Below are positions 55,929-62,590 of a stretch of 64,000 nt of DNA, in pieces (position 1 is the stretch's first letter; each line of letters starts with the position of its first letter). This DNA comes from an uncultured Candidatus Poseidoniales archaeon (GTDB taxonomy: Archaea > Thermoplasmatota > Poseidoniia > Poseidoniales > Thalassarchaeaceae). The position numbers were made by a program, and so were the translations under genes. Location of the stretch: positions 62,001 to 126,000 of the forward strand of contig CAJJBW010000008.1 in assembly GCA_905182515.1 (NCBI GenBank). Direction: 5' to 3'. The notes below the pieces were generated by a model. That model searched no databases, was not told the DNA's origin, and saw only the letters and a list, made by a program, of their open reading frames with translations.

Positions 55929-56540
55929 GTGATTCGTATCGGGTTAGTTATGCTCCAAGGGTCACGACATGCTCATATTACTGCCTTGGAACAGGCTGCA
56001 AATGAATCCAATATCGACATAGAAGTCGTAGAATTACGTTCTTCATCTGATTTAATTTCTTCAGAAATTGATGGCATAATAATTCCTGGAGGGGAATCAA
56101 CTACTATGAGATTAATTGGTAATTCTAATTTTTCAGGACTATTGCCCTCACTCATGACTTTGATAAGAGATAATCCTCATATTCCTGTCATGGGGACTTG
56201 TGCTGGCGCTATATTATTGACCGATCCGCAAGATGAATACACTTCTCTTATAGATGCTTCAATAGATAGAAATGCATATGGGACGCAAACCAATTCATTC
56301 CAGGCCGATGTACAAACATCTCTCCTAAAAATGAACTTTCCTGGTGTATTTATCCGGGCGCCTAAATTTCGTTCAGTAAATAATCCTAACTCTATTATAG
56401 CCACATGTAATGGAGAAGTGGTGGGGGTCCGAAAAAATAATCTAATAGCACTTACATTCCATCCAGAACTTTCAAAAAATCGTGGATTTCATAGCTGGCT
56501 CATAGGCCAAGCAGTAATTTATTCGGAGGGATCAAAATAA
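55929..56540 (+). CDS. pdxT: pyridoxal 5'-phosphate synthase glutaminase subunit
   Basis: GLVMLQGSRHAH, IIIPGGESTTM, MGTCAGAILL, LTFHPEL. Confidence 0.9.
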   Translation: MIRIGLVMLQGSRHAHITALEQAANESNIDIEVVELRSSSDLISSEIDGIIIPGGESTTMRLIGNSNFSGLLPSLMTLIRDNPHIPVMGTCAGAILLTDPQDEYTSLIDASIDRNAYGTQTNSFQADVQTSLLKMNFPGVFIRAPKFRSVNNPNSIIATCNGEVVGVRKNNLIALTFHPELSKNRGFHSWLIGQAVIYSEGSK

Positions 56541-57682
56541 TTCATCAACTAAGACTTCCACAAGTTCCAGAGTTACATGAGGCACCTGATAAGTCAGATA
56601 CCGAAGGGTGCATACAATGTCAATTAGGAAGTAAATTAGTTTTATTTATCACAGGACATTGCCATTGGCAATGCGATTATTGCCCTCTTTCTGAAAATAG
56701 GAGAGAGATAGATTGGATGTATGCCAATGAAAGAAAATGTGAAAATTTCGATCAAGTAATAGAAGAAGCCCGTGCTATGAGGGCCACAGGTGCCGGAATA
56801 ACTGGGGGCGACCCATTGATGGCGAGAGAAAGAACTCTCGAAGGAATAAAACGTTTAAAAGACGAATTTGGACCTTCTTTTCATCTTCATATGTATACAA
56901 GTATACCTTTTAAGCCAGAATGGGCGAAAGATTTTGCAGAAGCTGGACTTGATGAAATAAGATTTCATTTTCTTAAATTGGACTCTTCTAAATACAAAGA
57001 TACAATCACTGCATGTCATGAATCAGGAATGCTCACTGGCGTTGAATTACCTTGTGAACCAGATAAAGAATTAGAATTACTAAATTTATTGGATGAATTA
57101 AGGGAATTTGATATCTCCTTTATGAATGTTAACGAACTAGAAATAACAGTTGGGAATCATGGTAATATGGAGCTTAGAGGCTTCAATTTATCTTCTGGAA
57201 TAACGGCTGGTGCCAAAGGATCTGCAGAATTGGCAATGTCTATGAGAGATAGGATAAATGCTGCTGAATTAGGTTTACCGGACCCTCTTGATAAAGTAAT
57301 CAGAAAACCATTTGGATATAGTTTGAAATTCTGTACTGCAGTATACAAAGATGCGGGTCAACTACGCCGCCGTTTCCTTCGTAGAGGTGAAGCGACAATC
57401 GCCCCTCATGAAACTCTGACTGAGGACGGGACACTAATGTTTGGTGCAATATCTTCTAGCGACGAAGATCAAGAAGTTTGGATTTCAGAGATAATGGAGG
57501 AAACCAATTTACCCAGGAGATTCTTATATTGGGATAAAGATAACCAAAGAATTGAGTTGCCTTTGGTTGTTGCTGAATCTATAGCACCAGATGTCGAAGC
57601 ACCAGTTTCATTAGTTGAAGTATTACCTACATTTGAAAGGATTGAAATGTCTCTTATTTGGCTAAATGAATATCCTAAATAA
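56540..57682 (+). CDS. radical SAM protein (archaeal COG2108-like), non-canonical start
   Basis: upstream of the listed ATG 56717 the frame encodes GCIQCQLGSKLVLFITGHCHWQCDYCPLSENRREIDW; no ATG/GTG/TTG between in-frame stop 56516 and 56717. Confidence 0.82.
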   Translation: MHQLRLPQVPELHEAPDKSDTEGCIQCQLGSKLVLFITGHCHWQCDYCPLSENRREIDWMYANERKCENFDQVIEEARAMRATGAGITGGDPLMARERTLEGIKRLKDEFGPSFHLHMYTSIPFKPEWAKDFAEAGLDEIRFHFLKLDSSKYKDTITACHESGMLTGVELPCEPDKELELLNLLDELREFDISFMNVNELEITVGNHGNMELRGFNLSSGITAGAKGSAELAMSMRDRINAAELGLPDPLDKVIRKPFGYSLKFCTAVYKDAGQLRRRFLRRGEATIAPHETLTEDGTLMFGAISSSDEDQEVWISEIMEETNLPRRFLYWDKDNQRIELPLVVAESIAPDVEAPVSLVEVLPTFERIEMSLIWLNEYPK

Positions 57683-59574: not shown

Positions 59575-59660
59575 TGGCGCCGAGAGAGGGATTTGAACCC
59601 CCGAGTCCAATGGACAGCGGATTTCGAATCCACCGCAATACCGGGCTATGCGATCTCGGC
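59575..59660 (-). tRNA. tRNA-Ser (anticodon CGA), CCA encoded
   Basis: GCCGAGA...TCTCGGC acceptor, loop TTCGAAA, long variable arm, GTTCAAATC T-loop, GCCA end. Confidence 0.93.
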
Positions 59661-61782: not shown

Positions 61783-61859
61783 TGGTGGGCAATACAGGAT
61801 TCGAACCCGTGTCGCCGGCTTAGAAGGCCGGCATGATATCCAGACTACACTAATCGCCC
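61783..61859 (-). tRNA. tRNA-Arg (anticodon TCT), CCA encoded
   Basis: GGGCGAT...ATTGCCC acceptor, loop CTTCTAA, GGTTCGAATCC T-arm, ACCA end. Confidence 0.93.
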
Positions 61860-62513: not shown

Positions 62514-62590
62514 GGGCGTGTGGCGCAGCTTGGAAGCGCGCTTCCTTGGCATGGAAGAGGCCCCGAGTTCAAATCTCGGCACGTCCACCA
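62514..62590 (+). tRNA. tRNA-Ala (anticodon GGC), CCA encoded
   Basis: GGGCGTG/CACGTCC acceptor with G3-U70 pair, loop TTGGCAT, GTTCAAATC T-loop. Confidence 0.94.

Follow-up and report, generated by a model that had tools for sequence, protein, structure and literature searches.

The radical SAM gene downstream of pdxT in this archaeal genome is very probably translated from a natural AUA codon at 56537, held by a strong Shine-Dalgarno sequence. Initiation at this codon is predicted from the sequence, and it is probably coupled to the termination of pdxT. Starts at AUA, AUU or AUC (AUH, or ATH in DNA) occur in other genes of this and related genomes, and they look like a real and recurrent mode of gene start in Poseidoniales (Thalassarchaeaceae). 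The window is the whole 64,000-nucleotide stretch of DNA that was analysed, and G000 is the genome that contains it. The features at the junction of the two genes are as follows.

55929 to 56540, forward strand: pdxT, the PLP synthase glutaminase subunit (from the open reading frame list; TIGR03800, E 6.6e-45, above cut-off; PF01174)
56492 to 56494, forward strand: TAG, the upstream in-frame stop of the radical SAM frame, read from the sequence
56524 to 56533, forward strand: extended Shine-Dalgarno sequence CGGAGGGATC, which pairs with the 16S 3' end GAUCACCUCCU (duplex dG -15.5 kcal/mol)
56537 to 56539, forward strand: proposed AUA start, forming AUAA with the pdxT stop (-4 nt overlap), at a gap-free start column in 24 of 28 relatives
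56537 to 57682, forward strand: radical SAM protein, 381 aa counted from the AUA (PF04055, E 2.3e-10; PF13353)
56538 to 56540, forward strand: pdxT stop TAA
56540 to 56716, forward strand: 59 codons that precede the first canonical start and evolve under purifying selection (dN/dS 0.023 against G002)
56606 to 56620, forward strand: GCIQC, a conserved N-terminal motif 5' of the ORF caller's start
56660 to 56683, forward strand: CxxxCxxC [4Fe-4S] cluster motif (CHWQCDYC), absent from a product begun at 56717
56717 to 56719, forward strand: the ORF caller's ATG, an internal Met kept across the genus, with an SD-like stretch (dG -8.2) at long spacing

The radical SAM frame lies -1 relative to pdxT. 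As an earlier sequence-only reading had pointed out, the ORF list starts this gene at ATG 56717, the same frame encodes GCIQCQLGSKLVLFITGHCHWQCDYCPLSENRREIDW 5' of that position, and there is no in-frame ATG, GTG or TTG from the upstream stop to 56717. That reading had taken a TAA at 56516-56518 for the upstream stop. The in-frame codon there is AAT, a TAA at 56515-56517 sits in the third frame, and the real in-frame stop is the TAG at 56492-56494. The open stretch therefore includes CTG 56495 as well, which we rejected as a start since it has no Shine-Dalgarno sequence (dG -3.1). The GGAGGG at 56525-56530 lies where it had been placed, 6 nt 5' of ATA 56537 and 9 nt 5' of ATT 56540. Besides this junction, the window holds three tRNA genes (59578-59660 and 61786-61859 on the reverse strand, 62514-62587 on the forward strand), and no other Rfam family was found in it.

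The encoded protein belongs to the Radical SAM superfamily by its CxxxCxxC motif and a PF04055 domain over the gathering score, provided that translation begins 5' of 56660. It differs from other members in that no NCBIfam equivalog matched at its cut-off and no relative was found in the PDB by sequence. Orthologue-grade matches are present in 54 of the 59 genomes searched. Those near relatives that have names are MAGs assigned to Candidatus Thalassarchaeaceae or to Marine Group II, and no relatives were found in IMG/VR.

Alignment of the N-terminus with homologues, which the sequence-only reading had proposed as a check, identifies the start column. Canonical starts fall on the column of ATA 56537 in the 24 relatives (17 ATG, 6 GTG and 1 TTG), including ATG in the nearest species, G002 and G003 (91 and 90% amino acid identity). 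The window thus has a non-canonical codon at a conserved start column and no usable canonical start. Because the relatives' starts align with ATA 56537, AUA rather than AUU is the predicted start. G003 has ATG-ATT where the window has ATA-ATT, indicating that ATT 56540 is an inherited second codon. A natural AUA or AUU start, possibly coupled to pdxT, had been suggested from the sequence; this holds as the best reading with AUA favoured, and AUU is not borne out. The -4 nt stop-start overlap is found in 15 of 29 loci. It takes the form NTGA in several other genera as well as in G002 and G003, where it reads ATGA, against ATAA in the window. A single G-to-A change would therefore alter start and stop together, ATG becoming ATA and the TGA of pdxT becoming TAA.

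Coding selection extends to the start codon. Compared with G002, codons 2-60 carry 24 synonymous and 6 nonsynonymous differences, and their dN/dS is 0.023 against 0.045 for the remainder of the gene, both ratios being approximate since synonymous sites are near saturation. Within codons 2-60 just two changes, each of them synonymous, can be placed on the G000 branch, which makes a lineage-specific test of selection weak. The reading frame is unbroken over 381 codons.

The Shine-Dalgarno sequence is exceptional in strength. The 16S 3' tail GGATCACCTCCT was found in the genome, and none of the 413 conserved-start genes of G000 pairs with it as strongly as CGGAGGGATC does. The median duplex is -5.1 in these genes, and -6.6 in the ATG orthologues of G002 and G003. 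A fairly strong Shine-Dalgarno sequence is common for the radical SAM gene across the family, suggesting that its strength is not purely compensatory.

A census of coding signal 5' of every canonical start, blind to the codon used and with third-position filtering against shadow ORFs, compared all 1.26 Mb of G000 with the 1.23 Mb of G002 (736 usable orthologous coding pairs). The radical SAM gene ranked first (log-likelihood 23.8). Five genes in G000 have AUH starts: the radical SAM gene, fibrillarin, CoxB and an NTPase with AUA, and ABCE1 with AUC. Four do in G002: ABCE1, a TBP-like gene and a small protein with AUU, and the THEP1-like NTPase with AUA. The identities are by Pfam and NCBIfam, the TBP match being weak. 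In G002 the counterparts start with ATG (fibrillarin) and TTG (CoxB); in G000 those of the TBP-like gene and the small protein start with ATG; and these four starts are based on G000 and G002. AUH starts make up at least ~0.7% of genes. All seven accepted census events are ATH, with no ACG, AAG, AGG or CTG, while random single-base loss would yield about three of seven. The Shine-Dalgarno sequences of AUH-start genes are stronger than those of the genome (Mann-Whitney p 0.001 in G000 and 0.002 in G002), though only moderate at CoxB and the small protein. Three census signals were rejected as antisense ORFs, and one that is 100% identical between the species as probably rRNA. Diacylglycerol-kinase-like and PAN-like genes, which have a later start, and the signal C1+180119 were dropped by inspection only. 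Separately, ~70 nt directly 5' of a uS13-like ribosomal protein gene (G000:C1:32943-33494, forward strand) are nearly identical between the species (GTAAGTCGCGAGGACGCCCATTGGGCC...) and may form a structured leader. The other AUH-start genes of G000 are located as follows.

G000:C8:10546-11283, reverse strand: fibrillarin, ATA start, no canonical start in G000
G000:C12:6437-7216, reverse strand: CoxB, ATA start, no canonical start in G000
G000:C1:214202-214807, reverse strand: THEP1-like NTPase, ATA start behind GAGGTGAT in G000 and G002
G000:C8:44495-46312, reverse strand: ABCE1/RLI ribosome-recycling factor, ATC start (locus L184; the G002 counterpart, L185, has ATT)

The AUH codon is conserved across species at the NTPase and ABCE1. 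The NTPase starts with ATA in G000, G002 and G003 and with ATG in seven other congeners and two other genera, so the ATA is common to a clade across separate assemblies. At ABCE1, 30 fully read loci show the following codons at the start column: ATC in G000, ATT in G002, G003, G005 and G053, GTG in one and ATG in 24; the G005 codon is less certain since an N adjoins it. A pattern search of 320 genomes of the order matched 103 (ATG 84, ATT 8, TTG 6, GTG 3, ATC 2). Ten of these 103 Poseidoniales genomes, from four genera, thus have AUU or AUC, with ATT common to four species of genus g12; independent events were judged by genus membership rather than on a tree. Ascertainment began in the clade of the first sighting, and seven of the ten genomes lie outside it. 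A GAGG-type Shine-Dalgarno sequence precedes the AUH start in eight of the ten; G000 has GGGG, and the upstream sequence of G210 was unread.

The radical SAM gene itself has ATG in G002 and G003, and its AUA is known from a single MAG that is 71% complete. The AUA is therefore not needed for function. The true codon could be ATG, one base away as in the closest relatives, if the consensus sequence of this single MAG is in error or reflects a variant from a minority strain. We consider this unlikely. The assembly has no N, the Shine-Dalgarno sequence is extreme, and the accepted losses in the census are uniformly ATH, not an assortment of codons. Moreover, the AUH starts of the NTPase and ABCE1 are common to independent assemblies, which indicates that the lineage does use such codons. 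For the same reason, ATG in other species does not refute the AUA; the sequence-only reading had named ATG in other strains as evidence against its proposal, and what was found is ATG in other species at 90-91% amino acid identity. The S. aureus citZ AUA is also lineage-specific (PMC13009471), and start-codon conservation is not strictly defining for such genes. It is very unlikely that the start has simply been lost, leaving a decaying gene or one whose sole product is a shortened protein begun at ATG 56717. The ORF caller picks this ATG and an SD-like stretch precedes it, but its product would lack CxxxCxxC, and decay is at odds with the low N-terminal dN/dS, the synonymous changes on the G000 branch and the intact frame.

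Two other readings concern the junction itself. Initiation at AUU 56540, with a UAAUU stop-start overlap, would use a better studied rare start that lies 10 nt behind GGAGG. However, the relatives' starts align gap-free one codon earlier, the conserved -4 overlap requires AUA, and the G003 sequence marks the AUU as an inherited second codon, making this reading highly unlikely. Least probable, and extremely unlikely, is a PdxT-radical SAM fusion protein made by programmed -1 frameshifting where pdxT ends (CAAAATAA). The relative frame of the two genes and an A-run of four nucleotides ahead of the stop would allow it, but a classical slippery heptamer is absent. Such a fusion, raised in the sequence-only reading as a possible refutation, is unsupported because the relatives start the second gene independently with a canonical codon and do not conserve the A-run. 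Initiation at AUA 56537 remains the preferred reading, and the recurrence of AUH starts in core genes of related genomes makes it look real.

In the proposed scenario, a G-to-A change in an ancestral AUGA overlap converted the AUG start to AUA and the pdxT UGA to UAA together. The AUA would most likely be decoded as Met by the initiator tRNA (anticodon CAU) with a third-position mismatch, as this anticodon may pair with the A and U that open any AUH codon. The strong helix formed by CGGAGGGATC, together with a ribosome that has just terminated on pdxT, could offset the lost third pair. AUH starts in Poseidoniales genes would likewise recur mostly behind good Shine-Dalgarno sequences. Output from the AUA is probably below that from AUG, and is expected to be low but real. 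An altered initiator tRNA was rejected as an explanation, as nothing unusual appears in the two CAU tRNAs identified in G000 and in G002. A gene for aIF1, the functional analogue of IF3, is present and normal-looking in both genomes. Its start is a normal ATG, excluding an AUH start at aIF1 itself; the query sequence for this search was approximate. Archaeal initiation involves aIF1, aIF1A and aIF2 with Met-tRNAi (PMC7531240). Two observations count against the AUA: non-canonical starts are disfavoured by the aIF1 of Sulfolobus (PMC6237735), and such codons initiate weakly in E. coli, AUU at ~0.3% of AUG as cited in PMC10666635. In S. aureus, AUA and AUU starts with an extended Shine-Dalgarno sequence give ~10% of AUG output, and up to 30% (PMC13009471).

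The closest known systems are bacterial genes with AUH starts and extended Shine-Dalgarno sequences, namely infC (AUU/AUA), ccpN (AUA), citZ (AUA) and cvfC1 (AUU) (PMC13009471). Like them, the radical SAM gene combines a start-position AUH codon, here AUA, with an extended Shine-Dalgarno sequence, and it resembles citZ as a metabolic gene with a lineage-specific AUA. Unlike them, it is archaeal, with start selection by aIF1, aIF1A and aIF2 rather than IF3, its start overlaps the upstream stop, and the start is predicted from sequence. No report of an archaeal AUA or AUU start was found in the open-access literature. The junction also resembles ATGA termination-reinitiation gene pairs (Huber et al. 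2019, PMC6728339; PMC10666635), sharing the -4 nt overlap, the Shine-Dalgarno sequence inside the upstream gene and conservation in relatives. It differs in that the overlap is AUAA, an AUA start with a UAA stop that is impossible with NTG starts, and in that the coupling is putative.

ABCE1 dissociates ribosomes after termination and is considered to connect recycling with initiation (PMC7196836), so its repeated AUU and AUC starts invite comparison with infC. A tentative and rather doubtful possibility, drawn by analogy, is that Poseidoniales regularly use AUH starts as low-output, Shine-Dalgarno-dependent sites in core genes. On this view ABCE1, like bacterial infC, would have come to AUU or AUC repeatedly because the amount of ABCE1 regulates initiation or reinitiation on its own mRNA, which would be an archaeal counterpart of IF3 autoregulation.

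Gene callers usually permit ATG, GTG and TTG only, so AUH-start genes are called too short or overlooked; in the present case the caller's start cuts off the catalytic iron-sulphur motif. The AUAA junction suggests that a single stop-codon change that is silent (UGA to UAA) can, within an overlap, retune the next gene. The recurrent AUU and AUC at ABCE1 make autoregulation of ribosome recycling directly testable. If confirmed, natural AUH starts would be common to archaea and bacteria, despite the eukaryotic-type start selection (aIF1, aIF2) of archaea.
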